A stretch of 64,000 nt of DNA from Fomitopsis serialis (taxonomy: Eukaryota; Basidiomycota; Agaricomycetes; Polyporales; Fomitopsidaceae), in NCBI RefSeq assembly GCF_022376445.1, contig NW_025955059.1:62001-126000 (forward strand), given 5' to 3'. The notes beneath the pieces are model-generated. The model saw nothing but the letters and a program-made list of their open reading frames with translations. It was not told the DNA's origin and made no database searches. Numbering within the stretch: position 1 is the first letter of the stretch; each line of letters starts with the position of its first letter. Shown piece by piece: positions 2,383-32,125 of this stretch. The translations under genes and the position numbers were made by a program.

Positions 2383-3047
2383 GTCGATGACCAGGGCCGG
2401 GTCAGGGAAGGATGGGACGAGATAGGCAATCGCATGGCGCCCCTTCTCAGCTGGTCTTGAATATTCGGTGTATCTGCCTGTGTGCTTCATAACACCGCTC
2501 GATGCTGGGCCTAACGATACTGATCTTGCGCAGACGTACACAGTCGCTTACAGACTAGATGACATCCGGTTCTGTTGACCACGACATTAATTCTGAAGCA
2601 GCTGAAGTTGCAGAGATACTAAGATCATCGCCTGGTGGATTCAAGCAGTGAGTATTAGAATGAATTGAAAGCTACTACGATCATTGAGATGCGTACCAGT
2701 CTACTATGTAGAGCGCTCACGATTGGGCAGACCACCCGGTGTATTGCCGTAACAGGAAATTGTGCTCCTGAAGAGGAGGCTCACGTCGAGTCTGGAGGCT
2801 TCGGAATGGTAGGTTCTCGCCGGCATTTCGGGCAACGCGCAACTGCCTTCGTAGTTCTAGACAACACCCAAGTCGGCCACATCAGAACCTTAACCTTGTA
2901 GGATGAGAACTGCGTGGGTAGTTGCACAGGCCTGCGCTCAGCCTCACCATCACGGAGGCCAACCTAATGACAACTCACGAGGCGCAGGTGAGACCTATCC
3001 TCTGCGTGAGACATTCGACTCTCTGGCCTATCGTCTTCCGCTCAACA
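2383..3047. other. Divergent intergenic region between serine hydrolase and GTPase A
   Basis: No convincing gene. It should contain the promoters of both flanking divergent genes. A splice-donor-like sequence (CAG|GTGAGA) sits about 60 bp before the GTPase A start, but no acceptor is clear. Confidence 0.4.
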
Positions 3048-4211
3048 ATGGGTGGCTGTTGGTCATATTTCTCGCCAGAGCGGCACGAAGACCTGAAAGG
3101 ACAACACCTCACCGGGCCCGGAGCGAGGAGTGAGACGGGGGACCTCGAGTCCATACGGCAGGATGAAGAGGCGAGACAGCGGGTGGAGGCTGAGATGGCG
3201 AAAGCAGAGGCAGAGAGGAAGCATGCTGAGGAACAGGTGAGGGAGGCAGAAGAGGAGAGACGCAGGTTGGAAGAGGAGCGGCAAACGATGGAGGCGGAAG
3301 CTCGAGAGGCAGAGGAAGCACGTCAGAGAGCCGAGGAAGACCTCAAGCAAAAGCTCACCGAGCGCAAAAAGGCAGAGCAGGAACGAGATGCCGCGGAGAG
3401 AGCGGCAGCGGAGGCGCAGGCTGAGCAAGAGGTCGCCGAGCGGCTGCTACGCGAAGGTGCGCGGCCCGTGGTCGTCCCGACCGTCCAGCAGTTTCGGGAG
3501 GCGAAGCAGCGCCTGCAGTACCAGGAGGGCTACGCGCATATAGCCATCACAGGCGTCGCGGGCAGCGGCAAGTCCTCGTTGATCAACGCCCTCCGCGGTC
3601 TCAACAACGGCGAGCTAGGTGCAGCCCCGACTGGGATCGTCGAGACGACGAACACCATCGTACGCTATCCCGACCCGGATCCCAAGAAGCGCGCCGCCTG
3701 GTACGACGTCCCCGGCGCAGGCACGCTCGCAGTCCCAGATTGGGTCTATTTCACCGACCAAGGGCTGTACGTTCTAGACTGCGTGCTCGTGCTCTTCGAC
3801 TCGCGCTTCACAGCGACGGACGTCGCGATCCTGCAGAACTGCGAGAGGTTCCGCATACCCGCGTACGTCGTCCGCTCGAAGGCGCGCCAGCATGTCCGCA
3901 ACCTCGCGCGAGACATGGGCGAAGAGGACAGCGACGAGGAGGGGGAAAACGGTCGTGATGCGCAGGCGGCCGCCCTCGCGCGTGCTGCTGAGCGGTACGT
4001 GAAGGAGTCGCGGGAGAGCGTCGCGCGGAATCTGGAGTTGGCGGAACTACCGCAGCGGCGGGTCTACCTTGTCGACAAGGAGACGGTGAGGCTGCTGGTC
4101 AAGGGGCGGCATCCGAGGAACGCGTTTGACGAGAACGATCTATTGCGGGATCTGGCTGAGGCCACAGGCCCTGGAGGACCGGATGATGCAAAGTCAGCAA
4201 AGTCGGGTTAG
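3048..4211 (+). CDS. IRG-like coiled-coil GTPase, class A (intact)
   Basis: Single-exon frame of 387 residues. I chose the ATG at 3048, not an upstream in-frame one, because it gives MGGCWS, an N-myristoylation consensus (Gly2, Ser6) with a cysteine at position 4 that could be palmitoylated; classes B and D start the same way. Residues about 25-155 are a charged Glu/Arg/Ala-rich coiled coil. The G domain follows: P-loop GVAGSGKSS (about 169-177), GAAPTGIVETT (switch/G2), YDVPGAGT (G3, Asp about 220), then VVRSKARQH where IRGs have TKxD (G4). An acidic linker (EEDSDEEGE) and a C-terminal tail with VYLVDK complete it. The AAPTG-ETT and D-x-PG motifs resemble the interferon-inducible GTPase (IIGP) family, which acts on intracellular membranes in animals. 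Function in fungi is not established. It is the only class present once and lies beside the class B gene in the same orientation. Confidence 0.8.
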   Translation: MGGCWSYFSPERHEDLKGQHLTGPGARSETGDLESIRQDEEARQRVEAEMAKAEAERKHAEEQVREAEEERRRLEEERQTMEAEAREAEEARQRAEEDLKQKLTERKKAEQERDAAERAAAEAQAEQEVAERLLREGARPVVVPTVQQFREAKQRLQYQEGYAHIAITGVAGSGKSSLINALRGLNNGELGAAPTGIVETTNTIVRYPDPDPKKRAAWYDVPGAGTLAVPDWVYFTDQGLYVLDCVLVLFDSRFTATDVAILQNCERFRIPAYVVRSKARQHVRNLARDMGEEDSDEEGENGRDAQAAALARAAERYVKESRESVARNLELAELPQRRVYLVDKETVRLLVKGRHPRNAFDENDLLRDLAEATGPGGPDDAKSAKSG

Positions 4212-4670
4212 CGAGGTAGCCAAGCGCTTGTCTCCTGCCGCGCAGCACAACTTCACGAGTGATATCTGTGGTCGACGTGCTTCTAGTATATAACGCGCAC
4301 GATAAACGGATTTTATTTGAACTGCACAACTGAGCGAGCGACAGGTCGACACGAAGGTGGGAGACGGGCGGGAGTTGGCACACCCTCTGCGGCGCTGCCC
4401 GAAACCTTCTCTGACGGGCGCAGTTGGAAGTCCCATACTGAACGCCTGAGTATCATACTGAGATGCACATCCGCTCAGCGGTGCAAAGTCCTCGAGACGA
4501 GCTGCTCGATCGACCTCGACGACTTTGACCCGGCGACACGCCTACCGTCCCATACGCAAGCGCTCAACGCAGGTACGTATCACTCGCCCAGAGAGCCGCC
4601 ATGTTCCTGAGGGGCATCAAGCATCGTGATAAGGGTACCCAGGTCACCGTGTACACTTAACGTCCACACC
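4212..4670. promoter_or_regulatory. Class B upstream region with 5'-UTR intron
   Basis: Intergenic DNA between GTPases A and B. The part from about 4300 onward is recognisably repeated, inverted, upstream of B'' (about 30761-31060), including the stretch around the predicted intron (donor GGTACGTA near 4573, acceptor CCCAG at 4642). Conservation of non-coding sequence shows that the duplicated segment included the promoter. Confidence 0.5.
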
Positions 4671-6047
4671 ATGGGGAACGAGGCTTCGAAGATAGACTCC
4701 AAGTTCCGGGAGATGGCGGACGAGATGAAGAGTCAGTGGGACGTCCTCGTCCAGATGCAGCAGCCCCAGATCATGCAGGGCTCTGCGGACGCGCTCAAAC
4801 GCGCCGAGGAGACCCTGAAGAAGGCGGGGGAGATGGCGCGCGAGCAGCAGGAGGTGACGCGGCGTATGGAGGAGGCCGTGCGCCAGGCGGAGGAGGCGCG
4901 CCGGGCAGCGGTTGCACAGGCAGACCAGATGCGCGAGGCGATCGGCAGGCTCGAGGAACAGATGCGCCGCGCGAACGACGACCGGGCTCGCGCGGAGGCC
5001 GAGGCGCGCCAGGCGCACAGGGAGGAACAGGATGCGAGGAGCGCACGGGAGGAGGCGGGCAGGGCTGATGCCGCCGCGCGTGAGGCCAAGTAGGCTGCAG
5101 AGAAACAGTTGCGTGAGGGCGTGCAGCCGTTTGTCGTCCCGACGCAGGCGCAGCGCGAGGCGACCAAGCGCAAGTTTGGCTATCGGGAGAGCCTCTTCTA
5201 CTTCGCGATCGCGGGCGTGTCGGGCAGCGGCAAGTCGTCGCTCGTCAACGCATTGCGCGGGCTACGCGACAAGGACAGGGGCGCTGCACCCACCGGTGTC
5301 GTGGAGACCACAGCGGAGATCACTCGCTACCCCGACCCGAGCGCAGGCGTGCCGTACGTGTGGTACGACGTGCCCGGCGCGGGGACGCTGTCCGTCCCCG
5401 ACTGGCAGTACTTCAACGACATGGGGCTCTATGTGTTCGACTGCATCGTCGTCGTCTTCGACAACCGTTTCACCGCTACTGACGTTGCCATCCTCCGGAG
5501 CTGCACGCGCTTCCAGACCCCGACCTTGGTCGTGCGCTCCAAGTCGAACCAGCACGTCCAGAACCTTGCGAGTGACATGGGCGGCGAGGACGATGACGAC
5601 GATGCAGAAGAGGACGTTCCGGACGTGGATCAGCGGATGGAGAGGGCACGCGCGCGTTACGTGCAAGACTCGCGCGAGATCGTGAGGCGGGACCTGCAGG
5701 CGGCGGGCCTGCCCCCGCAGCCGGTGTACCTCGTCGACAAGGACGTGCTCGTGAAGATCGTCCGTGGGGGAAGTCCGAGCGGGATTGACGAGAAGGCCTT
5801 GCTCCGGCACATGTTCGAGCTTGCGCCGCCTCAGGTTGACGACTCTGACGAGTCGGAGGTGACGATGTCGGCGGGCAGTGCCAGTGAGAGTGAGTGGCAG
5901 ACGGGTTGTCCTTCCTCGGGTTGGCTTCGGTCACGGCTGTCGGGCCGACCCTCTGAAACGAGCCGTCGCTCGCCGTCAACTCGCCGTCATGATCACGTCC
6001 TGCTGCTTGCTAGTGACTTTCAAGTACTGTTCTCGAGAGCTCATTGA
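4671..6047 (+). pseudogene. IRG-like coiled-coil GTPase, class B, nonsense-interrupted
   Basis: The frame opens with MGNEASK (predicted N-myristoylation) and a coiled coil of about 140 residues. TAG at 5091-5093 stops it just before the G domain; the inverted copy B'' has GAG (Glu) at that codon. After the stop the same frame continues through P-loop GVSGSGKSS, GAAPTGVVETT, YDVPGAGT, VVRSKSNQH, an acidic Asp/Glu linker and VYLVDKD. The C-terminus departs from B' and B'' after EWQT because about 19-20 bp are missing, giving an unrelated tail to 6047. With both lesions it is probably a pseudogene, though a separate coiled-coil peptide of about 140 residues could still be made. A plausible 5'-UTR intron lies at 4573-4642 and is conserved upstream of B''. 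Confidence 0.75.
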
Positions 6048-6834
6048 TGCCGCCTTGCAACATATTCCCAGTGCGATTTGGCTCAATCATGGCATATGGG
6101 TAACGGCTATGTACAGCATGTGCTGAAAGCACGGCGCGTCTACGATTCGCGAAGGCTACACCGTGCGGGTGCCGCATCTGCACTGTTCACCTTTTCTAAG
6201 TCGTACGAAGATCCGTGCAGATATACAGCACCGTTGGGCATAGGGTGAGCGTGCTTCTTACCTTCGGCCGTTGACTGATAATTGGGTGCTCTTCTCATTT
6301 GCCCCGTGGTTGCAACGCAGCTATGTAGAAGCTGCAGTGCTATATTGAACCTATGTTAACACCGTTTCCCAGCAGGATCATGGACCGTTCCAACCATCCT
6401 TCCTTGAGCTCTCTTGCATCGTAAAGCGCGGAACAACAACAGGTAAGCTGTTGTGGTCGTCGCTCTCATAAGTTCTGTCATCCATGTCAACGATTCCTAC
6501 GCTAGAGTTACCCTGGATTCGGAACTGTAGGGCACTGCAGCAGAATCTAGTCACTTTGGTCATATCAGTCCGCTTCTGCTTCTGAGTGGCATCTAACCTG
6601 AATTGGCGTTGCGAAACCCGAACTCAATCTCCTCGTTTGCGGCACAAGTCGAACCATACTCCTCGTCGATGCTTCATATCCCGGGTCACCGGTCCATATT
6701 GGCTATGTATGGTGTGTTCCGTTGACTGCATGCAGTCGGCGTGGCCTGTCAGGGGATTGCGGTGCGTAGATCCATTGTCGCTGTAATCATATCATCGTCA
6801 AACGACAAGATAGCTGAAAGTCGATCTTGCCACC

Positions 6835-6840
6835 TATAAA
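6835..6840 (+). promoter_or_regulatory. TATA box of class C GTPase
   Basis: TATAAA in the context CACCTATAAAGCCCT, about 145 bp before the class C ATG. The same context recurs before C' (12625) and, inverted, before C'' (28661). Confidence 0.5.
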
Positions 6841-6978
6841 GCCCTCCCGACAATCTTGCGCGCTCTCAGGTCCTCTGGCGACTACCTGTTGTCTTAGAAT
6901 TGGTATGTAATGAACCTATTGTTTCGAGGGATGCTAAATGACGCGCATACTACTTCGTCTCGCTGCTGCTTCCTAGCC

Positions 6979-8265
6979 ATGGATTCTACATTCAAAACAG
7001 TAACTACGGCCATCGGAGTTGCTGCATTGGTCTCTCGGTTCACCGATCTCTACAACGACGCGAGGGCATACTTCCGAGTTGCTCGTCGTGGCGACAGTCA
7101 TGACACAGCGAGCAGATCCCAGATCGAAGCACTGCAAGCGCGCCTCTGGGAGGGGGAAGCGACACTCAACGCTATGAGAGCCAATACCGCTGAGGCTGCA
7201 GACGCCTTTCGGATGGCACAGGCAGCACATGAACAAGTTGAAGCACAATTGTCGATCATGGAAGAGAGCTTCCGACGACGAAATAGACAAGATCCATACT
7301 CCACTGAAGACACCAGGAGCATGGCCGATGGCGACTTCAGGAGCACCGAGCTGGACCGACAGGAGACCGAGTCGGAGGAGAGAAGGCGAGCGGAAGAGGA
7401 TGTCAATCGAGCCCTCGAGGAGCGCAGCAGAGCCATCATCGAGGCGAGTACGGCTAGGCAGGAGCAGGAGGAGGCTCTCCAAGCTCTCCGTAGCGCGGAG
7501 GACGCTGTTGCTGGCGCTCGTATCGAACAGCAGGCGGCGGAGGACAACTTGCGCAAGGGCATCCGCCCTGTCGTCGAGCCTACATGGGCCGAGTCCCAAG
7601 CGGCGAGGGAGCGTCTTGGGTACGAAGAGGGCATGTTCCATTTCGCCGTCGCTGGGATCGCAGGGAGCGGCAAGACGTCGTTAGTGAACGCTTTCCGCGG
7701 ACTACGTAACAGCGACAAGGCAGCGGCACCGACGGGCATCATCGAGACTACGAGTGCCATCGCTCGCTACCCCGATCCCGAATACCCGTTTGTGTGGTAC
7801 GACGTGCCTGGCGCAGGCACGTTGTCTGTGCCGGATTGGCAGTACTTCACGGACCAAGGCTTGTACGCCTTGGACTGCATCATTGTACTGTTTGACGTCC
7901 GTCTCACTTCCACGGATATCGCCATCCTCCGCGACTGTGCCCGCTTCGACATCCCCGCCTACATCGTGCGTTCTAAGGCTACTCAGCATATTCGGAACCT
8001 TGCCGCAGACGTGCCCGATACCGACGACGACGATGATGCGGGGATCTTGGAACGAGCGCGCGAGATGTACATCCAGGAGACCCGCGCGAGCGTTGCCCGG
8101 AACTTGGAGGCCGCGGAGTTACCCAAGCAGCGCGTGTACATGGTCGACAAGGACATTCTCGCTCGGATAGTGAAGGGACGGTCGGTCAGGGATGTTATCG
8201 ACGAAGAGGAGCTGCTCCATGACCTTGCTCAGACATATCGCCGGAATGCAAGTACATACACCTGA
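6979..8265 (+). CDS. IRG-like coiled-coil GTPase, class C (intact)
   Basis: 428 residues from the ATG at 6979. An upstream in-frame ATG at 6910 is probably inside a 5'-UTR intron (donor GGTATGTAA at 6903, acceptor TTCCTAG at 6976) that is conserved in C' and C''. Unlike A, B and D it has no Gly2; the first 30 residues are a hydrophobic or amphipathic segment (TAIGVAALVSRFTDLY) that could insert in a membrane. Residues about 50-205 are heptad-like coiled coil. The G domain has P-loop GIAGSGKTS (about 226-234), AAAPTGIIETT, YDVPGAGT and IVRSKATQHI. It ends with the acidic linker DTDDDDDAG, a helical RA-REMYIQETRASVARNL stretch and VYMVDKD. The long helical domain that follows the G domain in animal IRGs is not evident. 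It is the second gene of the B-C-D unit. Confidence 0.8.
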   Translation: MDSTFKTVTTAIGVAALVSRFTDLYNDARAYFRVARRGDSHDTASRSQIEALQARLWEGEATLNAMRANTAEAADAFRMAQAAHEQVEAQLSIMEESFRRRNRQDPYSTEDTRSMADGDFRSTELDRQETESEERRRAEEDVNRALEERSRAIIEASTARQEQEEALQALRSAEDAVAGARIEQQAAEDNLRKGIRPVVEPTWAESQAARERLGYEEGMFHFAVAGIAGSGKTSLVNAFRGLRNSDKAAAPTGIIETTSAIARYPDPEYPFVWYDVPGAGTLSVPDWQYFTDQGLYALDCIIVLFDVRLTSTDIAILRDCARFDIPAYIVRSKATQHIRNLAADVPDTDDDDDAGILERAREMYIQETRASVARNLEAAELPKQRVYMVDKDILARIVKGRSVRDVIDEEELLHDLAQTYRRNASTYT

Positions 8266-9023
8266 CACTTCATCCCCTCGCCGCAACCCGTCACACTTCC
8301 TCAGATGACAACACTTCCGAGCCTGCGCTCTCGTATCGTCTACGTATGCAGTTGATCGTGGTTTCACTGGGATTACTCGCCCTGCCCCGGGCTCACTGTA
8401 ACACGTACGTATTTCTATACGCCTAGAACAATTCCATTGAATTGGTATGCCAGTGAGTGCTTCCACCGATCCGACAACCTCAAAGTGACTGCTTGAGGGC
8501 ATACAGTCATCTAGCAGATTTTGCAGACAGCATGATAAGAGGTGCCAACGAGAAAAGACGGAGGATGACGTGTGTGTAGGGAAGCACCATATTGGATTCG
8601 CTGCCTGACTACTCTCAGACTCGCAAGTGGTATATGCGCTTACCAAACCACCTGCGATTCTCGCTATCTGCAACGCACCCCTGCTTACGGAGATCCGCAG
8701 TTGCATGCAGGAGGATAGGAATCAAGAAGCTTCATTTCGGCCAACTCTGTAATGCGTGGTAGAAGTCCAAGGACAACGTGCGCTTGAACTCAAACCTTGA
8801 TCCTGCGGGACCCTGAGTGCATGAAGGTCCAGGCGGGATTTATAGGACTCGGAGCTCATTGGGACGTCTTGACATTCCCGTACCAGCGACGACGAGCCTC
8901 CTACACGACGAACTCCACAGTGAGTACATCAAGATCTGTGATGGGAATCCGATATGAGCTGTATCACTAAGCGACGTTACAGAGAAAACATACTCAACAC
9001 GTCGAGTTCCATCTGCCAGAGCT
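8266..9023. promoter_or_regulatory. Class D promoter region with 5'-UTR intron
   Basis: Includes a TTTATA element at 8839-8844, about 185 bp upstream of the class D ATG. A conserved block GGGACGTCTTGACATTCCCG starts near 8861 and recurs almost unchanged before D' (14658) and in diverged form before D''. A predicted 5'-UTR intron at 8920-8982 (GTGAGTACATC to TTACAG) is also shared by all three D copies. The first 450 bp after class C are shared with 14053-14530 and, inverted, 27060-27510. Confidence 0.55.
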
Positions 9024-10190
9024 ATGGGAAGCAGCGAATCCAAGCCGGACCCCGAGCTGTTAAAGAAACAAATCGAGAAGCAGGATCAGCAGCTCGAGGA
9101 TGATAGGGAGGAGCAGAAGAAGACGTTGGACATGCTCAAAGACACTACAGCTGCGATGAAGGGGGCTTTGGAGAGGGTGGAAGACATGACGCGCGAGCAG
9201 AACAGGCTCGTACAGCAAGTGAATGAGGCGAGGCGACGTGCGGACGAGTCGAGACAATTCGCAGAGCAGCGTACGAAAGAACTGGGCGAATCTATGCGCA
9301 AGCTGCAGGAGGATGCGAAGAAGGCCAGAGAAGAACGCGTAGAGGCAGAAGCCGAGGTGAGAAGGGCGCAGGAGAAAGAGCGAGAGGCACGGCACGCACT
9401 AGAGGAGGCGGAGAGGCAGTTGCGCAAGGGCATACGACCGATTGTCGTCCCTACCCAGGCGCAGCACGAGGCGACCAAGCGCAGACTAGGCTACCAGCCT
9501 GGCTTCTTCCACTTCGCGGTTGCCGGCATTTCTGGTAGCGGCAAGTCGTCGCTCATCAATGCCCTGCGCGGCCTTCGTAACAATGACAGAGATACCGCGC
9601 CCACCGGCGTCGTGGAGACGACATCCAATGTCGTTCGCTATCCTGCTCGAGGCACTGACACGCCCTATGTCTGGTTCGACGTTCCAGGCGCCGGGACGCT
9701 GAACATTCCCGACTGGCAGTACTTCACCGAGCAAGGGTTGTACATCTTCAACTGCATCATCGTCATCTTCGACATCCGCTTCACGGCCACCGATATCGCC
9801 ATCCTCCGAAACTGCGTACGATTCCAGATCCCAGCCTTCATCGTGCGCTCGAAGTCAGGCCAGCACATCCAGAACATCGCGACTGACCTGGGCGGTGGCG
9901 ATGATGATGACGATGACGAGGAGGAGGATGGAGAAGGCAAACTGAGGCGCATGGCGAAGGCGCGCGATCTTTATATTCGGGATACTCGCGCGAGTGTTGC
10001 GCAAAACCTGGAGGAGGCAGGCCTGCTTGTACAGCGGGTGTACCTGGTCGATAAGAACGCTCTGGTGAAGGTGGTCAAGGGGACTCGGAGGAGGTCCCAC
10101 GAATGCATTGATGAGGAGGACTTGCTCAGAGACCTGTTTGCACTGGCAGATAGTAACGGGGGCTCACAGGCGGTGGAAGATGCCAGCTAG
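9024..10190 (+). CDS. IRG-like coiled-coil GTPase, class D (intact)
   Basis: 388 residues in one exon. The N-terminus MGSSESK fits N-myristoylation (Gly2, Ser6, basic residue at 7). A long Glu/Arg/Gln-rich coiled coil covers about residues 10-140. The G domain carries P-loop GISGSGKSS (about 168-176), TAPTGVVETT, FDVPGAGT and IVRSKSGQHI, followed by an acidic linker (GGGDDDDDDEEEDGEG) and VYLVDKN. The C-terminal tail runs eight or so residues beyond D', where a CAG is TAG. It is the third gene of the first B-C-D unit, same strand, about 760 bp after class C. Likely a membrane-anchored large-GTPase-like protein; its partner and ligand are unknown. Confidence 0.8.
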   Translation: MGSSESKPDPELLKKQIEKQDQQLEDDREEQKKTLDMLKDTTAAMKGALERVEDMTREQNRLVQQVNEARRRADESRQFAEQRTKELGESMRKLQEDAKKAREERVEAEAEVRRAQEKEREARHALEEAERQLRKGIRPIVVPTQAQHEATKRRLGYQPGFFHFAVAGISGSGKSSLINALRGLRNNDRDTAPTGVVETTSNVVRYPARGTDTPYVWFDVPGAGTLNIPDWQYFTEQGLYIFNCIIVIFDIRFTATDIAILRNCVRFQIPAFIVRSKSGQHIQNIATDLGGGDDDDDDEEEDGEGKLRRMAKARDLYIRDTRASVAQNLEEAGLLVQRVYLVDKNALVKVVKGTRRRSHECIDEEDLLRDLFALADSNGGSQAVEDAS

Positions 10191-11177
10191 TAGGCTTGAG
10201 CAGTCGTAGAGTCGTAAGCTCCATTTCCGCCGAAATACTGTCTGTACACCGGGGATTCGAGGGGGTTGTACGAGGTCGTAGTACCTGAGTGAAATACGAC
10301 GCAGGATCATCGCCATGTCGACGAATATCAATGGCTGGAGAGGCCGACGAACGGTCGACTGTTGAGGCGAATAGTACTGTAAGGATGTCGAGGGTTAGGG
10401 TTCCCAAGGCAGATAGCTCGGACTTCGTAGCTTACATAAGACTATTCGTTTTTCTTGTACCGTCACTACGCTGCGTCGTTTACCGCTATGGAACGGGATC
10501 TAACGCACTTGTGACGACCGACGACTCACCACCACCTCCAGCAACCTTACATGTATACAGACCGGCGGCTTATCAGCCAGTGCTAGACGAGCACCAAAAC
10601 CAGTGCACAGAAGTATCCCCAGTCTCAGGCGGCTTGGCTGTGAAGCTCCAGCCAGTTCAGCCCGTATGCGAGCTAGCCAATGCCATGCTCGAGTATCTTC
10701 GCCAGCTGCAGGCTCCGTTTTGGTGATGAGTGACAATGACCGGCTAGCTTCCGAATCTTCATTCGTGCTAGGAGTCAGTCCGCCGATGGCAGCACAAAGG
10801 TGTTGTATGCCATACCGATGCGGAACTAAGTTGTTCTGCGCAGGGAGCGCTGTCAGGCGCAGCGGGCACAGAGCCTCGAACACCATACGCCGTGCACGGC
10901 ACGGTAATTGAGCAGGCTCAAGGATCTATAAGGGTCACACATTGCGTTCGGGACCACGCGTATTTAAATTGCGTGCTCCGAGGAAGTATGCAGGACCAAC
11001 CACGGGGCGTCGAGACTTCGCCAGCGTTCGATGGGCAGCAGACATACGAGATGCAACACTATGTCCGAATTCGGCTCTACAACTTGAACGTAGTCATCAT
11101 TCCAGCTTGCCTGACTCGGTTCGGAGTTCGCTGCGAGAGTGCTTCAACGAAACGTGACGGTCACGAGAAGCACATAC
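10191..11177. other. Duplicated spacer downstream of class D
   Basis: No gene is convincing. The segment is recognisable, inverted, at about 24869-25590 next to D''. The match ends at about 11177, where the class B' fragment begins, so 11177/11178 marks the tandem-duplication junction. Confidence 0.6.
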
Positions 11178-11748
11178 TACATACTTCACCGACATGGGGC
11201 TCTACGTGTTCGACTGCATCGTCGTCGTCTTCGACAACCGCTTCACCGCCACCGATGTCGCGATCCTCCGGAGCTGCATGCGCTTCCAGATCCCTACCTT
11301 GGTCGTGCGCTCCAAGTCGAGTCAGCATATCCAGCAGAACCTTGCGAGTGATATGGGCGGTGCGGACGCAGACGACGACGATGCGGAAGAGGACGTTCCC
11401 GACGTGGACCAGCGGATGGAGAGCGCGCGCGCGCGATACGTGCAAGACTCGCGCGAGATCGTGAGGCGGGACCTGCAGGCGGCGGGCCTGCCCCCACAGC
11501 CCGTGTATTTTGTCGACAAGGACGTGCTCGTGAAGATCGTCCGTGGGGGAAGTGCGAGCGGGATAGACGAGAAGGCCTTGCTCCGGCGCATGTTCGAGCT
11601 TGCGCCGCCTCAGGTTGACGACTCTGACGAGTCGGAGGTGACAATGTCGGTGGGCAGTGAGAGTCAGCCTGAGTGGCAGACGGACATGTCGTTGTCCGAC
11701 AAGCTGTCCGACTTCGAGTTGGACCCGGTGGCCGGGCCGAGCCCATGA
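11178..11748 (+). pseudogene. Class B' GTPase fragment (5' half missing)
   Basis: An open frame runs from about GLYVFDCIVVVFDNRF to the stop at 11748 and is nearly identical to class B from after the G3 motif on: VVRSKSSQHI, an acidic linker, VYFVDKD and the tail SESQPEWQTDMSLSDKL. The coiled coil, P-loop, switch and DVPGAGT are absent. The sequence just upstream is post-D spacer, so the truncation is the tandem-duplication breakpoint. An ATG at 11194 could start a roughly 184-residue product, but it could not bind nucleotide in the normal way. Confidence 0.8.
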
Positions 11749-12762
11749 ACGTTATGAACCTCCCAACTTGCTTCCAACCTTAAGCTTTAAGCCTGCTGTC
11801 GAGTCCTCCAGTCTCCCTCAAAGCTTCACTCATGATCATGTCTTTCCGCTGTTTACATGTCGGAGCCTAGCTAGTCGACTGTGACTCTTGTTTTCGAGCT
11901 TAACCACAGCGCGACTCTGACCCGGTCGAGTCATGGCGTGCGCATGTCTATGCATCGCCAAATGTGAAAGCGCGATGCATTTACGACGGACAGTACGACA
12001 GTACGTATGGTGACGTACCGCATCTGAAGGAATTCTTCATCTCCCGTTTGAAGATTCGGGCATACATATCTCAAGCAGCGTTGGGCATAGGGCGAGTGTA
12101 CTTCTTACCTTCGGCCGTTGACGCGGACGGTCACAATGCTGATCTTCTCAGTCATCCCGTGGTTACGGCGCAGCTGGAAGCTGCAGTGCGAGATTGAACT
12201 TATTTTCAGCGAGACCATGATGGACCGTTCCAACTATCATCCCCTAAGCTCTCTCGTATCGTATACCCCGGGACAACAACAGATACGCTGTTGTGGTCCT
12301 CCCACCTGGACCCTGGATTCGTAACTGCAGGGCATTGCAGCAGAGCCCAAGTGCATTCGTTCATATCAGTCCGCTTCCGCTTCTGAGCGGTCGTCCTGCC
12401 CTACATAGTAAAAGGACCGTTGCGAAGCCCGAACCTCGTTGCCCGAGTCGAACCACACTCCTCGTCGATGAATCATATTCCAGGTCATCGGTCCATATCG
12501 ACCATACATCGTGCGCTTCTGTCGACTGCATGCAGTCGGCGTGGCTCGTCAGGAAGATTGCGGTGTGAGTTCATTGTCGCCGTAACCATAACTGACAAGA
12601 TAGCTGAAAGTCGACCTTGCTACCTATAAAGCCCTCGCGTAAATCTTGCACGCCCTCAAGCCTCCTGACAACTGCTTTGTGTCTCGCAATCGGTGCGTAA
12701 TTAACCTATCGTTTCGGGGTGTACTGAATGAGACGTATACTTCGTCTAGCTGCTTCCTAGCC
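11749..12762. promoter_or_regulatory. Class C' upstream region
   Basis: Much of the stretch repeats the DNA between B and C. It contains TATAAA at 12625-12630 in the class C context and a predicted 5'-UTR intron at 12693-12760 (GGTGCGTAA to TTCCTAG). No other gene was seen. Confidence 0.5.
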
Positions 12763-14052
12763 ATGAGTTTGCGTTTTGAAACGGTCGCAGCTGCAGTCGT
12801 CGGAATTGGTGCAGTGGTTTCTTTGTTCGACGAACTCTTCAACAACACGAGAGCACGCTTCCCGGGTCGTCGCAATGACCGTAACACAGCGAGGAGCAGA
12901 TCCCGGATCGAAGCACTGCAGGCGCGCCTTTGGGAGGGAGAAGCAACGCTCAATGCTATGAGAGCGAATACCGATGCGGCTACAGAGGCCTTCCGGATGG
13001 CACAGGAAGCAAGTCGGCGAATTGAGGCACAATTGTCGATCATGGAAGAGAGCTTCCGACGACGAAATAGACAAGATCCATACTCCACTGAAGACACCAG
13101 GAGCATGGCCGATGGCGACTTCAGGAGCACCGAGCTGAACCGACAGGAGACCGAGTCGGAGGAGAGAAGGCGAGCGGAAGAAGACGTCAGTCGAGCCCTC
13201 GAGGAGCGCAGCAGAGCCATCATCGAGGCGGATAGGGCTAGGCAGGAGGAGGACGACGCTCTTCAAGCTCTCCGTGGCGCGGAGGTCACTGCTTCTGGTG
13301 CTCGTATCGAACAGCAGATGGCGGAGGTCAACTTGCGCAAGGGCATCCGCCCTGTTATTGAGCCTACACAGGCCGAGTTCCAAGCGGCGAGGGAACATCT
13401 TGGGTACGAAGAAGGCATGTTCCATTTCGCCATCGCTGGGATTGCAGGCAGTGGCAAAACGTCGTTGGTAAACGCTTTTCGCGGACTGCGTAACAGCGAC
13501 AAGGCCGCGGCACCAACGGGCATCATCGAGACCACCAGTGCCATTGCCCGCTACCCGGATCCCGAATACCCGTTTGTATGGTACGACGTGCCTGGCGCAG
13601 GCACGTTGTCTGTGCCGGATTGGCAGTACTTCACAGATCAAGGCCTGTACGCCTTGGACTGCATCATTGTACTGTTCGACGTCCGTCTCACTTCCACGGA
13701 TATCGCCATCCTCCGCGACTGTGCCCGCTTCCACATCCCCGCCTACATCGTGCGTTCCAAGGCTACTCAGCACATCCGGAATCTTGCCGGAGACATGCCC
13801 GAGAACGACGACGACGACGATGCAGGGATCTTGGAACGAGCGCGCGAGATGTACATCCAGGAGACCCGCGCGAGCGTTACCCGGAACTTGGAGGCCGCCG
13901 AGATACCCGAGCAGCGCGTGTACATGGTCGACAAGGACATTCTCGCTCGGATAGTGAAGGGACGACCGGTTAGGGACGGCATCGACGAAGAGGAGCTGCT
14001 CCATGACCTTCTTGCTGAGGCGCAACGCCGGAACGCAAGGGCAGACTGCTGA
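12763..14052 (+). CDS. IRG-like coiled-coil GTPase, class C' (intact)
   Basis: 429 residues from the ATG at 12763; an upstream in-frame ATG at 12646 lies before the TATA-proximal intron and is unlikely to be used. The N-terminus has a hydrophobic or amphipathic segment (AVVGIGAVVSLFDELF), not a myristoylation signal. A coiled coil (about 50-205) precedes P-loop GIAGSGKTS (226-234), AAAPTGIIETT, YDVPGAGT, IVRSKATQHI, the acidic linker ENDDDDDAG and VYMVDKD. The central part (13031-13224) is nearly identical to class C (7247-7440) while the sequence just before it is clearly more diverged, a gene-conversion-like pattern. All G motifs are present, so it is probably functional. Confidence 0.8.
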   Translation: MSLRFETVAAAVVGIGAVVSLFDELFNNTRARFPGRRNDRNTARSRSRIEALQARLWEGEATLNAMRANTDAATEAFRMAQEASRRIEAQLSIMEESFRRRNRQDPYSTEDTRSMADGDFRSTELNRQETESEERRRAEEDVSRALEERSRAIIEADRARQEEDDALQALRGAEVTASGARIEQQMAEVNLRKGIRPVIEPTQAEFQAAREHLGYEEGMFHFAIAGIAGSGKTSLVNAFRGLRNSDKAAAPTGIIETTSAIARYPDPEYPFVWYDVPGAGTLSVPDWQYFTDQGLYALDCIIVLFDVRLTSTDIAILRDCARFHIPAYIVRSKATQHIRNLAGDMPENDDDDDAGILERAREMYIQETRASVTRNLEAAEIPEQRVYMVDKDILARIVKGRPVRDGIDEEELLHDLLAEAQRRNARADC

Positions 14053-14824: not shown

Positions 14825-16027
14825 ATGGGAGGCGGTGAATCCAAGATAAGTTCGTTGGAGGACCGAGTCCAGAGGCAGGAACAGCTGCTCCAGGAAGCTA
14901 TGAAGCAGCAGGAAACCACGTTGGGCATGCTCAAAGGCGCGACAGACGCGCAGAAAAATGCGACGGCGGCTTTGAAAAAGGCAGAAGACATGACGCGCGA
15001 GCAGGACCAGCTCATACGGCAAGTGAATGAGGCAAGGCGACGCGCGGACGAGGCGAGACAATTCGCAGAGGAGCGTACGAAAGAGCTGCGCGAATCTATG
15101 CGCGAGCTGCAGGAGGATGCAAAGAAGGCCAGAGAGGAACGCGCAGAGGCCGAGGCCGAGGCGAGGAAAGCACGGGAGAATGAGCGAGAAGCGCGGCGCG
15201 CACAAGAGGAAGCCGAGAAAGCGGCGACGGCAGCGCGTGAGGCGAGAGAGGAGGTGGAAAGGCAGTTGCGCGAGGGCATACGGCCGATGCTCGTCCCTAC
15301 CCAGGCGCAGTACGAGGCGACCAAGCAAAGACTGGGCTACCGGCCTGGCTTCTTCCACTTTGCAGTTGCCGGCATTGCTGGCAGCGGCAAGTCGTCGCTC
15401 ATCAATGCCCTCCGTGGTCTTCGTAACAAGGACAGAGGTGCCGCACCCACAGGCGTCGTGGAGACGACATCCGATGTCGTTCGCTATCCTGACCCGAGCG
15501 CTGACATGCCCTATGTCTGGTACGACGTTCCGGGCGCCGGGACGCTGAACATTCCCGACTGGCAGTACTTCACCGAGCAAGGATTGTACATCTTCAACTG
15601 CATCATCGTCATCTTCGACAACCGCTTCACAGCCACCGATATCGCCATCCTCCGCAACTGCGTGCGATTCCAGATTCCAGCCTTCATCGTGCGCTCGAAG
15701 TCGGGCCAGCACATCCAGAACCTCGCTAACGACATTGGGAGTGGTGATGACGACGACGACGATGACGACGACGACGATGACGACGACGAGGATCCAGAAG
15801 GCAAACTGAAGCGCATGGCGAGGGCGCGCGATCGCTATCTTCGGGACACTCGTGCGAGTGTTGCGCGAAACCTGGAGGAGGCGGGCCTGCTTGCGCAGCG
15901 GGTGTACGTGGTCGATAAGGACGCCTTGGTGAAAGTGGTCAAAGGGAGGAAGTCTCACGAATGCATCGATGAAGAGGACTTGCTCAGAGACATGTTTGCG
16001 CTTGCAGACACTAATGGGGACTCATAG
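14825..16027 (+). CDS. IRG-like coiled-coil GTPase, class D' (intact)
   Basis: 400 residues in one exon. It begins MGGGESK (predicted N-myristoylation). The coiled coil is longer than in class D by about 15 residues (EKAATAAREAREEVE). The G domain has GIAGSGKSS (about 183-191), GAAPTGVVETT, YDVPGAGT and IVRSKSGQHI. The acidic linker is expanded to about 15 consecutive Asp, encoded by a GAC/GAT microsatellite near 15748-15790. VYVVDKD precedes the tail, which ends at a TAG where class D has CAG. Lysines and the P-loop are intact, so the protein should bind nucleotide. Confidence 0.8.
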   Translation: MGGGESKISSLEDRVQRQEQLLQEAMKQQETTLGMLKGATDAQKNATAALKKAEDMTREQDQLIRQVNEARRRADEARQFAEERTKELRESMRELQEDAKKAREERAEAEAEARKARENEREARRAQEEAEKAATAAREAREEVERQLREGIRPMLVPTQAQYEATKQRLGYRPGFFHFAVAGIAGSGKSSLINALRGLRNKDRGAAPTGVVETTSDVVRYPDPSADMPYVWYDVPGAGTLNIPDWQYFTEQGLYIFNCIIVIFDNRFTATDIAILRNCVRFQIPAFIVRSKSGQHIQNLANDIGSGDDDDDDDDDDDDDDEDPEGKLKRMARARDRYLRDTRASVARNLEEAGLLAQRVYVVDKDALVKVVKGRKSHECIDEEDLLRDMFALADTNGDS

Positions 16028-16959
16028 GCAGTGGATGGTGCCAGACTCGAGTAGTCGTAGATTGGTACTAGTTGGAAGGGCTACTTTCCCTGGCATATGG
16101 ACAGCGGGCGACGGTGTACATTCTGGGATGAAGCATGCCGTCGCTGCCACATTTACACGAATTATGGGGTGACCTGCTGAGGTGCCCAGGATCCAGGTGC
16201 GTATCAGCAGACGACAACATCTGTTTTGACAACGCACTCGCCGGTTGATACAGAGAACTGGAAATGTACGTGGTTCAGACTTGAGTTGGTGGATCGGTTA
16301 TCTTGATATACCATATCGAACAGTTTGTTGCAACCGTCTCGATGCCCATATGTTGAAGCAACTCAGAGCTGAGGTGCAGTCTCCAAGCCCGAGAACTCCA
16401 GCCGAACTTCCAAGGAAACTGATTGATTGAATTAAGGAACTTCTCCAAGGCCGATGCGTTACACTATCGCAACGATCGCTCCGGAAGGACGAAAGCTCGA
16501 GCTATTGACGACACAGTGAGCGTGCGAGAGAGAAAAGATGCAGACGACGCCCTTCCCGAAAGCCCAATACACTGGGAAAATAATTCGTGAAGCCTGCAAC
16601 GCAAGTTGTAGTAGAGTAGCCCAAGAGCACGACTGGCTGTTTGAACAGGTATCAGATCATGATAGTCAGAGAGGACCCAGACAGGATAGTCAGTTATAAC
16701 CGACCTTCATGCTGGTGTTATGCAGCGCCCCTGACCGGCCTTGCGGACTACATCATGCATCAGCTTGAACTCGTCGGTGGAGATTGTGAATGATCCTCCG
16801 GGCTCCGGCGTGACTTAAGGGCATCCGCGACACGCCTGAGTCATAGGCTCTCTATCGATGGTATACCCGCAGCTTGTCATTCAGTTTGCCGGCTGGTGCC
16901 TCGCGAAGGGATATCTAGGGTTCCTGAGTGAAGACCTCTCGCGCCTCCTGCAGGTCGAA

Positions 16960-17130
16960 TATGCAGGCGTGGGCAGCTGAGATTGGATACGGTATGTCAA
17001 CCAGGCGTGAGTCCCAGAGGATGCTGGTGCAGTTGAAGACGTACACATTGGTCTGTGAAGTACGTCCAACTCAGCACGACCAGCGTCCCCGCACCAGAGA
17101 TGGTGTATCATACGTACGGGTTGGCGTGTT
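16960..17130 (-). pseudogene. Decayed IRG-like GTPase remnant
   Basis: On the minus strand the order NPYV-stop-Y-SGAGTL-YFTDQ-NCTSI matches PYVWYDVPGAGTL-YFTEQGLYIFNC of the array genes, with stops and indels. Only the region around G3 is recognisable; flanking coiled-coil or C-terminal parts were not found. It is an older copy than B'', C'' or D''. Confidence 0.6.
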
Positions 17131-25615: not shown

Positions 25616-26798
25616 TCAAGCCTGGGCATCATCCGTTGCCTGTGATGCCCAATCATTATTTGCCAGTGCAAACATGTCCCTGAGCAGGGCCTCCTCATCA
25701 ATGCATTTACGGGACGTCCTCCCCCTGACCACCTTCAGCAGAACGTCCTTATCGACCGCGTACACCCGCTGCGCAAGCAGGCCCGCCTCCTCCAGGTTTC
25801 GCGCAACACTCGTACGAGTCTCCCGAAGATAACGGTCGCGCGCCGTCGCCATGCGCTCCAGTTCGCCTTCTCGATCCCCCTCCTCGTCGCTGTCGTCGCC
25901 ATCGTCATCATCGCCACCGCCCAGGTCGTTCGCGATGTTCTGAATGTGCTGGCCTGACTTGGAGCGGACGATGAAGGCCGGGATCTGGAATCGTACGCAG
26001 TTGCGGAGGATGGCGATATCGGTGGCTGTGAAGCGGTTGTCGAAGATGACGATGATGCAGTTGAAGATGTACAACCCTTGCTCGGTGAAGTACTGCCAGT
26101 CGGGAATGGTCAGCGTCCCGGCGCCCGGAACGTCGTACCAGACATAGGGCATGTCAGCGCTCACGAACGATATCGGATGTCGTCTCCACGACGCCTGTGG
26201 GTGCGGCACCTCTGTCCTTGTTACGAAGACCACGGAGGGCATTGATGAGCGACGACTTGCCGCTGCCAGCAATGCCGGCAACTGCAAAGTGGAAGAAGCC
26301 AGGCCGGTAGCCCAGTCTTTGCTTGGTCGCCTCGTACTGCGCCTGGGTAGGGACGAGCATCGGCCGTATGCCTTCACGCAGCTGCCTCTCCGCCTCCTCT
26401 CTCCCCTCACGTGCTGCCGCCGCCGCTTTTTCGGCTTCCATTTGTGCGTGCTGCGCCTTTCGCTCGTTCTGCCGTGCCTTCCTAGCCGAGGCTGCAGCCT
26501 CTGCGCGTTCCTCTCTGGCCTCCCTCGTATCCTCCTGCAGCCTGCGTATAGATTCGTGCAGCTCTTTCGTACGCTCCTCTGTGAATTGTCTCGCCTCGTC
26601 CACGCGTCGCATCGCTTCACTCACTTGCCGTCTGAGCTGATCCTGCTCACGCGTCATGTCTTCCACCTTCTTCCTCGAAGCCTCCGTCACATCTTTCTGC
26701 GACGTGGTCTCCTGTTGCTGCATAGCTGCCTGGAGCAGCTGTTCCTGCCTCTGGATTCGTTCCTCCAACAAGCGTATCTGGGACGCGCTGCCTCCCTT
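25616..26798 (-). pseudogene. IRG-like GTPase, class D'' (start lost, 11-bp deletion)
   Basis: Aligns to D' through most of its length. The position of the start codon (26796-26798) reads AAG instead of ATG. The coiled coil and P-loop GIAGSGKSS, GAAPTGVVETT are intact. At about 26152-26160 it lacks 11 bp that in D' encode the YPDP turn before DMPYVWYDVPGAGT, shifting the frame. After the shift G3, IVRSKSGQHI, the acidic linker and VYAVDKD remain readable to the stop at 25616. The lack of start and the non-homopolymer 11-bp deletion make it a real pseudogene. Confidence 0.8.
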
Positions 26799-26982
26799 AA
26801 CTCTGGCAGATGGAACTCGACGTATTAATTATCTTGTCTCTGTAACGCCGCATGGTTAGTGATACAGTTCATATCGGATTGCTAATCACAAAACATAGAA
26901 TGCTCACTGGGGAATTTGTCGCCGCGCAGCGGTCTCGCCGTCGGTATGGGAAGGTCAAGACATTCCGATGAGCGTTGAGAAC

Positions 26983-26988: not shown

Positions 26989-27512
26989 ACCCGCTTGGAT
27001 TCATATGCACTCACGATTTCGCAGGATCAAGGTTTGAGTTCAAGCGGGCGCCATCCTTGAATCACCACGCATCACAGGGCTGGCCGAAATGAAGCTTCTT
27101 GATTACCACCCTCCTGTACGCAACTGTAGTGCGGATCTCCGCATGCATGTATGCTGCGCCGCAAATGGCGAGAATCCGCAGATGAGTCTGGTAAGTGCCG
27201 TTTGAGGCTGTCGGATCGATGCAGCACTCATACCAATCGACTACAATTATTCTGCGCGTATAGATATATATGTTACAGGGAGTCCGGGGCAGGCCCAGCC
27301 AGACCAGTGTGATCACGATCAACTTCGTACGTGTACTGTCTACATAGGGCTTCGCCCTCAGTGACCACAAAAGGGAATAAACAAACAAACAAACTTCGTA
27401 CGTAGACGATATGAGAGCGTGCAGATCATACCGATTTCGATCCAGACACGGAAGTGCTAACATCTGAGGTATGAATATATGACGGGTCGCGGCGAAGGGT
27501 TGACAGGAAGTG

Positions 27513-28520
27513 TCAGGTGTCTGTACTTGCTTTCTGGCGACGTGCCTCAGCAAGAAGGTCACGAAGCAGCTTCTCTTCGTCGATGCCGTCCATGACCGGT
27601 CGTCCCTTCACCATCCGAGCAAGAGTGTCCTTGTCGACCATGTACACTCGTTGCTCAGGTAACCCCGCGGCCACCAAGTTCCGGGCTATGCTCGCGCGGA
27701 TTTCCTGGATGTACATCTCGCGCGCTCGTTTCGAGATTCCCGCATCGTCGTCGTCGTCGGTATCAGGCATGTCTCTGGCAAGGTTCTGGATGTGCTGAGT
27801 AGCCTTGGAGCGCACGATAAAGGCTGAAATCCCGAAGCGGGTGGAGTCGCGTAGTACAGTGCCGATGTCCGTGGAAATGAGACGACTGTCGAACAGGACG
27901 ATGAGGAACTCGGCCTGTGTAGGCTCAACGACAGGGCGAATGCCCCTGCACAAGTTGTCCTCCGCGTCCAGTTGTTCAATACGAGTACCAGAAGCAGTGA
28001 CCTCCGCGCCACGAAGCCCCTGAAAAGTCTCCTCCTCCTCCTGCCTAGCCTTACTCGCCTCGACGATGGCTCGACTGCGCTCCTCAAGGGCTCGACTGTC
28101 GTGCTCTTCCACTCGCCTTCTCTCCTCCTCGGTCCCCTGTCGGTCCAGCTCGGTACTCCTGAAGTCGCCATCAGCCATGCTCTTGGTGTCTTCGGCGGAG
28201 TATGGATCCGGACTATTTCGTCGTCGGGAGCTCTCTTCCATTATCGATAATTGTGTTTCAACTCGCTGGCGCGCTTCCTGTGCCGCTCGGAAGGCGTCTG
28301 CCGCCTCAGCGGTATTCGCTCTCATAGCGTTGAGCATCGCGTCCCCCTTCTGAAGGCAGGCCTGCAGTGCTTCGATCCGGGATCTGATCCTCGCTGTGTT
28401 ACGGTCGTTACGACGACCCAGGAAGCGTTCTCTCGTGTTGTTGAAGAGGGCGTCGAACAAAAGAACCACTGCATCATTTCTGGCGACTGTAGCTGCGACC
28501 GTTTCAAACCGCGAACTCAT
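27513..28520 (-). pseudogene. Class C'' GTPase paralogue lacking G1-G3 (in-frame deletion)
   Basis: An uninterrupted 335-residue frame from an ATG (28520). The N-terminal hydrophobic segment and coiled coil align with C and C'. After VEPTQAEF the sequence jumps directly to IVLFDSRL: about 94 codons holding the P-loop, AAPTG-ETT switch and DVPGAGT are missing. IVRSKATQHI, the acidic linker DTDDDDDAG, the helical tail and VYMVDKD are kept. The frame is intact on both sides of the junction (near 27908), so a coiled-coil plus C-terminal protein without nucleotide binding could be made. It may be a pseudogene or a functional decoy. The TATA context (28661) and 5'-UTR intron are still present. Confidence 0.75.
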
Positions 28521-29459: not shown

Positions 29460-30760
29460 TCATAGGCTCGGCCCGACAGCCGTGACCGAGGCCAACCCGA
29501 GATCGGACAGTTTGGTGGACAACGACATGTCCGTCTGCCACTCACTCTCACTGCCCACCGACATCGTCACCTCCGACTCGTCCGACTCGTCAGCCTGAGG
29601 CGGTGCCAGCTCGAACATGCGCCGGAGCAATGCCTTCTCGTCAATCCCGCTCGGGCTTCCCCACGGACGATCTTCACGAGCACGTCCTTGTCGACGAGGT
29701 ACACCGGCTGCGGGGGCAGGCCCGCCGCCTGCAGGTCCCACTTCACGATCTCGCGCGAGTTTTGCACGTATCGCGCGCGTGCCTTCTCCTTTCGCTGATC
29801 CATGTCCAGAACGTCCTCTTCCGCATCGTTGTCGTCTGCATCCGCACCGCCCATGTCACTGGCAAGGTTCTGGATGTGCTGGCTCGACTTGGAGCGCACG
29901 ACCAAGGTCGGGATTTGGAAGCGCGTGCAGCTCCGGAGGATCGCGACATCAGTGGCGGTGAAGCGGTTTTCGAAGACGACGACGACGCAGTCGAACACGT
30001 AGAGCCCCATGTCGGTAAAGTACTGCCAGTCGGGGACGGACAGCGTCCCCGCGCCGGGCACGTCGTACCACACGTACGGCACGCCTGCGCTCGGGTCGGG
30101 GTAGCGAGTGATTTCCGCTGTGGTCTCCACGATACCGGTGGGCGCAGCGCCCCTGTCCTTGTTGCGCAGTCCGCGCCAGGCGTTGATGAGCGACGACTTG
30201 CCGCTGCCCGACACGCCCGCGACTGCAAAGTGGAAGAGGCTCTCCCGATAGCCAAACTTGCGCTTGGTCGCCTCGCGCTGCGCCTGCGTCGGGACGATGA
30301 ACGGCTGCACGCCCTCGCGCAGTTGTTTCTCTGCAGCCTCCTTGGCCTCACGCGCGGCGGTACCAGCCTTGTCTGCCTCCTCCCGTGCGCTCCTCGCATC
30401 CTGCCCCTCCCTGTGCGCCTGACGCGCCTCAGCATCCGCGCGAGCCCGGTCGTCGTTCGCGCGGCGCATCTGTTCTTCGAGCCTGCCGATCGCCTCGCGC
30501 ATCTGCTCCGCCTGCGCGACCGCTGCCCGGCGCGCCTCCTCCGCCTGGCGCACGGCATCCTCCATGCGCCGCGTCGCCTCCTGCTGCTCGCGCGCCATCT
30601 CCTCCGCCTTCTTCAGTGTGTCCTCGGCACGTTTGAGCGCGTCCGCAGAGCCCTGCACGATTTGCTGCTGCTGCAGTTGGATGAGGACGTCCCGCTGGCT
30701 CTTCATCTCGTCCGCCATCTCCTGGAACCTGGAGTTCATCTTCGATTCCTCGTTTCCCAT
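29460..30760 (-). pseudogene. IRG-like GTPase, class B'' (frameshift near C-terminus)
   Basis: Starts MGNEESK (predicted N-myristoylation) at 30760. The coiled coil is complete and has GAG where class B has its TAG stop. The P-loop GVSGSGKSS, GAAPTGIVETT, YDVPGAGT, VVRSKSSQHI, acidic linker and VYLVDKD are all present. At about 29660-29666 a G run is one base shorter than in B and B' (4 versus 5), so the frame shifts after KIVRG and ends at 29567. In the other frame SPSGIDEKALLRRMFELAPP continues to a normal class B tail ending at 29460. Since only a homopolymer base is missing and the shift is past the G domain, this copy could be functional if the base is a sequencing error. Confidence 0.7.
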
Positions 30761-31060
30761 TGTGTCGACGTCAGGTATGCACGGTGACCTGGGTATCTTA
30801 TCACGATGTACGATGCCCCTCAGGAACGCGGCTGCTCTCTGGGCGAGTGCTACGTACCTGTGTTGAGCGTCCTTGCGTAGGGCACAGTAGACGTATCGCC
30901 GAGTCAAAGTCGTCGAGGTCGATCGAGGAGCTCGTCTCGAGGACTTTGCACCGAGCGACAGGTCGACACGGAAGTGGGAGACGGGCGAGAATAAGGTTGG
31001 CGCATCCTGGACCACTGCGGCGCTGCCCGAAACCTTCTATGACGGGGGTCTCGGACTGGA

Positions 31061-31300
31061 CGCCCGAGTATAACTGGGACACAAATCCGCTCCGCCAGGC
31101 GATGGCCTCTGATATCTCTACAACGTCAGCTGCCTCTTTCATGGACAACAGTGTTGAATGCCATGTAGTCTGTAGGTGACTCGTAGGTCTTCTCGAGATC
31201 AATGTCATTACGCCCAGCAACGAATGGTGTTATCAAGGAGACACACCAAATACTCAGCTGAGCACCATGCGATTGCTCATCTCTTCCTTCCCTGGTCATC
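31061..31300. other. Short spacer right of the inverted arm
   Basis: Nothing recognisable. It lies between the inverted class B upstream region and the decayed serine-hydrolase copy. The class A gene expected here by symmetry with the left arm is missing. Confidence 0.4.
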
Positions 31301-31845
31301 ATGATGCGGACTCTACTCACCAGTGTTAATGCCGTCCCCGCCGTTTCTCTTTACTTTGGCAGTCACTGCATCAGCTCCATCATCGTCTTTTCAATCTTCC
31401 GGACACAAGAACTCGGGCGTCAAGCGATGGAATGGCAGGCGATTCCTTCCCAAACCTTCATGCCGACACGCCCCCGTCCCCTGACTATTCCGCCATATGC
31501 GCAGCCATGTAAAACTCGGATGAGTTCCTCACCTCTCGGTTCTCTGTTGGTTTAGTGACTGGTAATGCCGTTGGTGGTGCTGCGGATAGACAGTCTCGGT
31601 CGCCGTCTTACCATCCAACGGCTTGCTGTTCGATTGCAACTTCGGTGTGATGAGGGGGAACGGACGGTGACGTCGCCGCCGACAACCTGACACTCGTTGT
31701 AAGTCCCGGATCGCTTCAGTTTCGAAGCTGTTCACACTCGAGGGTCTGATATTGGAACAGCGAAGGGTTACAAAGTGGTACGTAGCACGGTATGGTTCAT
31801 TACCGATCTCGAGTTGACCCGAACACTCGCAAGGGACGACCCCAA
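31301..31845 (+). pseudogene. Decayed serine-hydrolase (beta-lactamase-like) 5' fragment
   Basis: Matches the first exon and first intron of the gene at 236-2382. The N-terminal LLTS-AVSLYFG anchor, the RPRPLTIPP-encoding stretch and the SxxK region (about 31700-31740) are followed by the exon-1/intron-1 boundary, with the intron sequence still recognisable (GTACGTAGCACGG). Several stops and frameshifts are present, and nothing of exons 3-5 follows. It mirrors the intact gene on the far left and so marks the outer end of the palindrome. Confidence 0.7.
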
Positions 31846-31909
31846 GCCGTGGCAGCATATTCGGACTGTGGGTAATGGCATGCAAAACAACCACAGCTGG
31901 GACGGGAAG

Positions 31910-32125
31910 GATGCTTGGGAGAGGGCGCGTGGACAACACGTCCAGGAGACACGCGCGAACGTAGCGCAGAACATAGCGGCTTGCCGGATTGCTTGCGCAG
32001 CGGGTGTATACGGCCGACAAGCCTGAGGAGTGGTAAGGCAGCAACCTGAGGACACAGTTGACGATTGGGACCTATTGGTCGATCTTCTGGACGAAGCTCG
32101 GAAGAGACGTCTGACGTGGATGTCG
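31910..32125 (+). pseudogene. C-terminal GTPase relic fused to the serine-hydrolase fragment
   Basis: Reads DAWERARGQHVQETRANVAQN and later DDWDLLVDLLDEARKR, matching the post-linker helix (RAREMYIQETRASVARN) and the EEDLLRDL tail of the array GTPases, with a frameshift between them. It follows the hydrolase fragment by about 65 bp and part of it shares an open frame with it, so it is a recombination junction. Confidence 0.6.

Follow-up and report, generated by a model that had tools for sequence, protein, structure and literature searches.

A polymorphic array of IRG-like GTPase genes in Fomitopsis serialis as a candidate recognition locus

Introduction

What might a fungus use a cluster of genes for whose products carry a G domain like that of the mouse IRGs, described as one of the main cell-autonomous defences that mice have against Toxoplasma, a vacuolar parasite? 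The question is raised by a stretch of 64,000 nucleotides (hereafter the window; contig C806, 62001-126000) within the 66-Mb assembly of Fomitopsis serialis (Polyporales, Fomitopsidaceae). From the sequence alone, a first-pass annotation had proposed that it holds a palindromic, triplicated array of IRG-like coiled-coil GTPases in a basidiomycete, and the host is indeed one. Judging from sequence comparisons and a structure model, the cluster most likely serves defence or the recognition of self and non-self, acting at membranes inside the cell, a reading to which we assign a probability of about one half.

Results

Comparison of the window with itself bore out the proposed layout, in which a trio of genes (B-C-D) is present three times. 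The first two units form a direct repeat (5409-10216 against 11182-16067, 79% identity), and the third is inverted (4479-7597 against 30953-27905 at 81%; 13657-16061 against 27911-25605 at 79%). Copies of the same class share ∼75-93% of their DNA, which is far above chance and also too low for a single sequence that had been assembled twice. Nine copies and two remnants had been reported; the list behind that count names ten, which is the number we find in the window (Table 1), while the two remnants stand as weak ones, recognised solely by DNA matches of 64-66%. The cluster extends leftward beyond the window, with five further matches to the Pfam IIGP profile on C806 and three on contig C168. 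Across the assembly there were at least 28 such matches (14 on C806, 11 on C166 and 3 on C168), all of these counts being lower bounds, scored exon by exon. The eight outside the window lie at 24-27 kb, 43.8 kb, 50 kb and 61 kb of C806 and at 43-56 kb of C168; the open reading frame (ORF) of the 61k gene crosses the left window edge and has an MGxxxS start plus a long hydrophobic stretch.

The assignment of the G domain to the IRG/IIGP family was supported by both sequence and fold, using profile, phmmer and structure comparison. Ten ORFs, including two that are not G domains of the array, were scanned against IIGP at a cut-off of 24 bits, which was passed by seven (A, B, C, D, C′, D′ and B″), each match falling within profile positions 32-165 of 375. 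Dynamin_N, another of the profiles suggested for checking, was not matched by the window ORFs, the highest score being 13.6 bits where the cut-off is 27. The features of an IRG-type G domain are present (G1 GxxxxGKS, switch I and DxPG), G1 ending in GKT in class C. In the model of D′, a predicted helix of ∼140 residues precedes the C-terminal G domain, in keeping with the long helix proposed earlier, and residues 175-400 align to 68-257 of Irga6; IRGs come first in the structure-match lists and mitofusins next. The C-terminal helical domain of IRGs, residues 255-415 in Irgb6 (PMC8605323, in excerpt), is absent: D′ stops at the end of its G domain and IIGP is matched only to position 165. The fungal proteins are therefore IRG-like, rather than IRGs in the full sense.

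Homologue searches, from which the best 120 of 745 and the best 120 of 414 proteins were taken, gave 150 different proteins. Among them, 78 were treated as full-length-like (Met start, P-loop at 120-320, 320-500 residues) and the other 72 were excluded from that set. A canonical G4 motif, [NT]KxD, was found in none of the ten window copies, in all of which RSK[AS] precedes R, N, S, T or G and never Asp; the phmmer alignment places the G4 Asp of Irga6 opposite a Gly of D′. This Asp is present in 17/78 full-length-like homologues, and many relatives from Boletales and Agaricales keep G4 as RSK[AS]D. Both the window copies and a large number of relatives have an acidic, Asp-rich loop of variable length after G4, with up to 14 consecutive Asp in D′. 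Two G4-like motifs, probably marking tandem G domains, occur in 44 of the 150 homologues, many of them from Boletales and Agaricales.

A second haplotype of the locus is represented by contig C166 (57.8 kb), which, the array core aside, aligns to C806:34053-97662 with 98-99% identity; contig C543 begins at the C806 base where C166 ends. RPB2-type genes are single in the assembly, which means that its phasing is incomplete. C166 carries A, B, one C and one D, plus the inverted unit as in C806. The start of the A match and that of the D′ match lie 5,985 bases apart on C166 and 11,834 on C806, a difference of 5,849 bases, and haplotype 2 thus has one B-C-D unit fewer.

Its D is 99-100% identical to D′. 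Its C protein, compared with C′, shows 98% identity in the G half and 56% in the N half; at the DNA level, identity is 39-70% in the upstream region and in most of the N half, rises to 80-84% at 13.2-13.4 kb and reaches 94-100% from near the P-loop onward. The divergent N half has no other occurrence in the assembly, the other copies reaching just 72-74%. It does resemble a metagenome protein, P0080 (86% in the N half, 92% in the G half), while the N half of another, P0076, is 74% identical to C′ and 54% to the haplotype-2 allele. The N-half tree joins the haplotype-2 allele to P0080 (support 94/97, just below the tool's star), with grouping to C′ rejected (p-AU 1e-45); in the G-half tree its partner is C′ (99/97), with P0080 rejected (p-AU 3e-4). 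The groups tested here were picked after the identities had been seen. Class C has two N-terminal lineages, each with a relative outside the strain, both relatives being metagenome proteins. Synonymous divergence in the N half is 0.75 between the haplotype-2 allele and C′, compared with 0.26 between the paralogues C and C′.

These differences stand against a background of 0.61% (272/44,484) in the remaining sequence, a figure that leaves out eleven named features and the non-aligning B-C interval. Between haplotypes, C′ differs at 22% of sites in the aligned N half (114/510) and 3.2% in the G half (21/662), and A at 3.2% in its N-part (15/474) and 0.1% in its G-part (1/691). For copy B, the haplotypes agree in 93% of 1,363 columns. 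In part of its G domain the haplotype-2 B is 95-97% identical to the inverted B″ and 87-93% to the B of its own position, which makes conversion between the palindrome arms plausible. A further peak, of up to 15/199 sites and counted within the 0.61%, lies beside the upstream 43.8k IIGP gene, which itself differs by 1.7%.

Five copies (A, B, B″, D and D′) begin with MGxxxS, which has the sequence pattern of an N-terminal membrane signal. MGxxxS is the usual N-myristoylation pattern. The haplotype-2 allele of A starts with MGGLIS, keeping both Met-Gly and Ser6, and has a frame break farther downstream. Class C has no Met-Gly start; a hydrophobic N-terminal 19-mer is found in C′ and its haplotype-2 allele, and not in C. 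A Met-Gly start is shared by 54 of the 78 full-length-like homologues, and every one of these (54/54) has Ser6; across all 150 homologues 70 start with Met-Gly, followed by Ser6 in 67 and by Ala at that position in 3. At Met-Gly sites in the interior of the proteins, Ser is found equally far downstream in 6 of 90. A hydrophobic 19-mer lies within the first 60 residues of 19/54 Met-Gly homologues and 6/24 of the others. P0033, the database model of B″, has its start placed downstream of the Met-Gly terminus; it also contains a second G4 motif of class C type, and so seems to be fused to the C″ remnant.

The earlier description of many broken copies was correct for B, B′, C″ and D″, which are decayed in the ways listed in Table 1, and is less certain for some of the frameshifts. 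B″ has one frame break per haplotype, at different places, and in the near-identical flank at C806 80-98 kb the haplotypes differ by 28 gap openings and 7 mismatches; single frameshifts may therefore be assembly indels. The same may apply to the frame breaks in the haplotype-2 A and B.

Of the 58 G domains placed in a tree, 11 came from this genome and 47 were hand-picked from the 150 homologues; each class fell with proteins of other genera. A and B each group with Rhodofomes and Daedalea proteins (100/100 and 100/95, respectively). C groups with Rhodofomes (100/99) within a wider group adding Daedalea and F. betulina (100/96). For D, the group with Rhodofomes (97/93) lies within a wider, less certain one that adds the same two (92/76). 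Those of Rhodofomes roseus that group with B, C and D are EVJ58_g6836, g6837 and g6838, all listed on a contig of 30,199 bases. In Daedalea quercina, the proteins that fall in the A and B groups and in the wider groups of C and D are likewise all listed on a contig, of 383,904 bases. Given these class relatives in other genera and the B-C-D order in Rhodofomes, the trio seems to be older than its tripling in Fomitopsis serialis.

Discussion

The family domain was already known, as the first-pass annotation had said: proteins of the same family, found among the homologues listed in many Agaricomycetes, are labelled 'interferon-inducible GTPase-domain-containing protein' or 'IRG-type G domain-containing protein' in databases, entries that offer a label only. 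Its impression that such an array is undescribed also agrees with the literature, in that no study of fungal IRGs was found in open-licence sources among the matches listed, and two reviews of fungal immunity make no mention of these proteins. What appears to be new is the occurrence of an IRG-type G domain in fungi, within another protein architecture and at an undescribed polymorphic locus.

Mouse IRGs form many-gene clusters, as is the case here. Beyond the sequence and fold of the G domain, a further parallel lies in their N-termini, Gly2 being described as myristoylated in Irga6 and Irgb10 and not in Irgb6, much as Met-Gly and non-Met-Gly classes occur together in this array. Unlike the mouse proteins (Irga6, Irgb6 and Irgb10 of the IRG/p47 family), those of the fungus have no C-terminal helical domain, are predicted to have the ∼140-residue helix where IRGs have a short N-terminal domain, and lack the G4 Asp in the ten window copies. 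To our knowledge, the interferon control of mouse IRGs cannot apply in a fungus. The polymorphism itself is reminiscent of the fungal het loci. In Aspergillus fumigatus, hetA-hetE are reported to have divergent alleles of narrow footprint, presence/absence alleles and trans-species lineages (PMC11138114, in excerpt), which resembles the local, deep half-gene polymorphism and the presence or absence of a unit seen here. The het genes in the available part of that account are described without IRG-type GTPases, and the present case differs further in coming from one strain and in having no known incompatibility phenotype.

Immune or self-recognition genes often show the combination found here, a difference in copy number plus an allele that is deeply divergent in its N-terminal half. 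With the MGxxxS N-termini, these two features add evidence to the earlier suggestion of an immune or self/non-self locus, which we continue to infer. In more specific and more tentative terms, to which we would give somewhat less than even odds, the cluster may belong to an IRG-type system of cell-autonomous recognition, self/non-self or anti-parasite, that mushroom-forming fungi have of their own and in which membrane-anchored coiled-coil GTPase trios combine old, balanced N-terminal specificities with a conserved switch. The N-terminus would anchor each protein to a membrane via N-myristate or a hydrophobic helix, and the helices would unite B, C and D in one coiled-coil assembly there. Pairing of the G domains could act as the switch of assembly, as homodimerisation does in mouse IRGs (PMC8605323, in excerpt). 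The N-terminal half would set what is recognised, the partner or the target membrane, and selection would hold this half variable while keeping the G domain alike. Anti-parasite defence and het-type recognition would leave similar marks, and the present data do not separate them.

Several observations weigh against a role in defence or recognition. The deep divergence is local and not array-wide, since most array genes compared are near-identical between haplotypes. Besides the G part of A, this holds for D′, D″ and B″ and, upstream, for the 50k and 61k genes, which all differ by 0-0.2%. No direct sign of positive selection was seen, as dN/dS is below 1 in every pair compared. The sharing of allele lineages between species is indicated only, coming from two haplotypes of one strain and metagenome-derived relatives. 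With the G4 Asp missing in 10/10 copies, GTP specificity is uncertain, and 24/78 full-length-like homologues have no Met-Gly start, although P0033 at least has a wrongly placed one. Finally, the ORF of the neighbouring hydrolase is itself 6.8% divergent, so that the GTPases are perhaps not the sole target of selection.

Some of these points would suit ordinary membrane-traffic or organelle GTPases that had been tandemly duplicated, with neutral losses, gains and gene conversion. The dN/dS ratios, the near-identity of most compared copies, the second place of mitofusins in the structure lists and the wide occurrence of the family in Agaricomycetes, as a housekeeping family could have, are all compatible with this. 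We nevertheless regard it as unlikely, as a single strain has unequal copy numbers in its two haplotypes, several copies are clearly non-functional, and the N-half dS of 0.75 sits within a haplotype background of ∼0.6%. Unequal copy number, a deep allele and dead copies are atypical for housekeeping genes. It is rather unlikely, too, that the divergent segment of haplotype 2 reflects recent introgression, or ectopic conversion from a paralogue lost elsewhere, instead of balancing selection. A single divergent C allele was seen, its identity to C′ shifts gradually up to about the P-loop, and the partial closeness of the haplotype-2 B to B″ speaks for exchange between the arms; yet the assembly holds no donor, and the near-identity of D′ and the right flank means that an introgressed piece would have been short, ending near mid-C. 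Assembly error, whether as a chimeric or mis-joined C166 or as collapsed or expanded repeats, is very improbable. The prevalence of indel-type differences in the flank and the partial phasing would fit it, but C166, the array core aside, keeps the order of C806 right up to either end, and C543 takes over at the base where C166 stops. Moreover, repeat copies differ by up to ∼25%, and the divergent C half, absent from C806, so resembles the independent P0080 that it must be real sequence.

If a role in defence or recognition is correct, IRG-based immunity would exist in fungi too, by shared heritage or by parallel recruitment of one G domain. Through a fungal family that shares with IRGs the G domain and the type of lipid-anchor motif, and whose locus varies in sequence and copy number, the origin of IRG immunity could be tested in organisms amenable to culture and crossing, and the locus is a concrete candidate for recognition in Polyporales.

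Features of the window

Table 1. Array copies, remnants and flanking hydrolase sequences, in window positions.
Feature	Position	Strand	Remarks
ORF, beta-lactamase-type serine hydrolase, left end	1301..2203	-	partial PF00144 match; divergent between haplotypes, 61/895 sites
Copy A	3048..4211	+	intact ORF, MGGCWS start, IIGP G domain
Copy B	4671..6047	+	MGNEAS start; in-frame stop at 5091-5093, upstream of the G domain, in both haplotypes
Copy C	6979..8265	+	intact ORF, IIGP G domain, non-myristoyl N-terminus
Copy D	9024..10190	+	intact ORF, MGSSES start, IIGP G domain
Copy B′	11158..11748	+	5′-truncated, starts inside the G domain; IIGP 12.8 bits, under the cut-off
Copy C′	12763..14052	+	intact ORF, hydrophobic N-terminus; haplotype-2 allele deeply different in the N half
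Copy D′	14825..16027	+	intact ORF, MGGGES start; modelled helix 9-149, G domain ∼175-400
Short decayed remnant	16933..17119	-	64% to D′
Copy D″	25616..26801	-	frameshifted in both haplotypes, start codon lost
Copy C″	27513..28520	-	G domain without the G1-G3 part (deletion)
Copy B″	29567..30760	-	MGNEES start; C-terminal frame break, a different one in haplotype 2; possibly intact
Relative of left hydrolase region	31091..31842	+	72% DNA; partial, two stops
Short decayed remnant, class C type	31842..32021	+	∼65%

Related hydrolase sequences were indeed found at both array ends, 1875-2639 matching 31842-31091, and the copy on one side is decayed as had been proposed. This is the right one, which matches residues 27-128 of the left ORF and is interrupted by stops; residues 129-300 have no match in it. 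Divergence of the left ORF between haplotypes rises to 34/195 sites per 200-base bin, and the hydrolase may therefore belong to the polymorphic unit.
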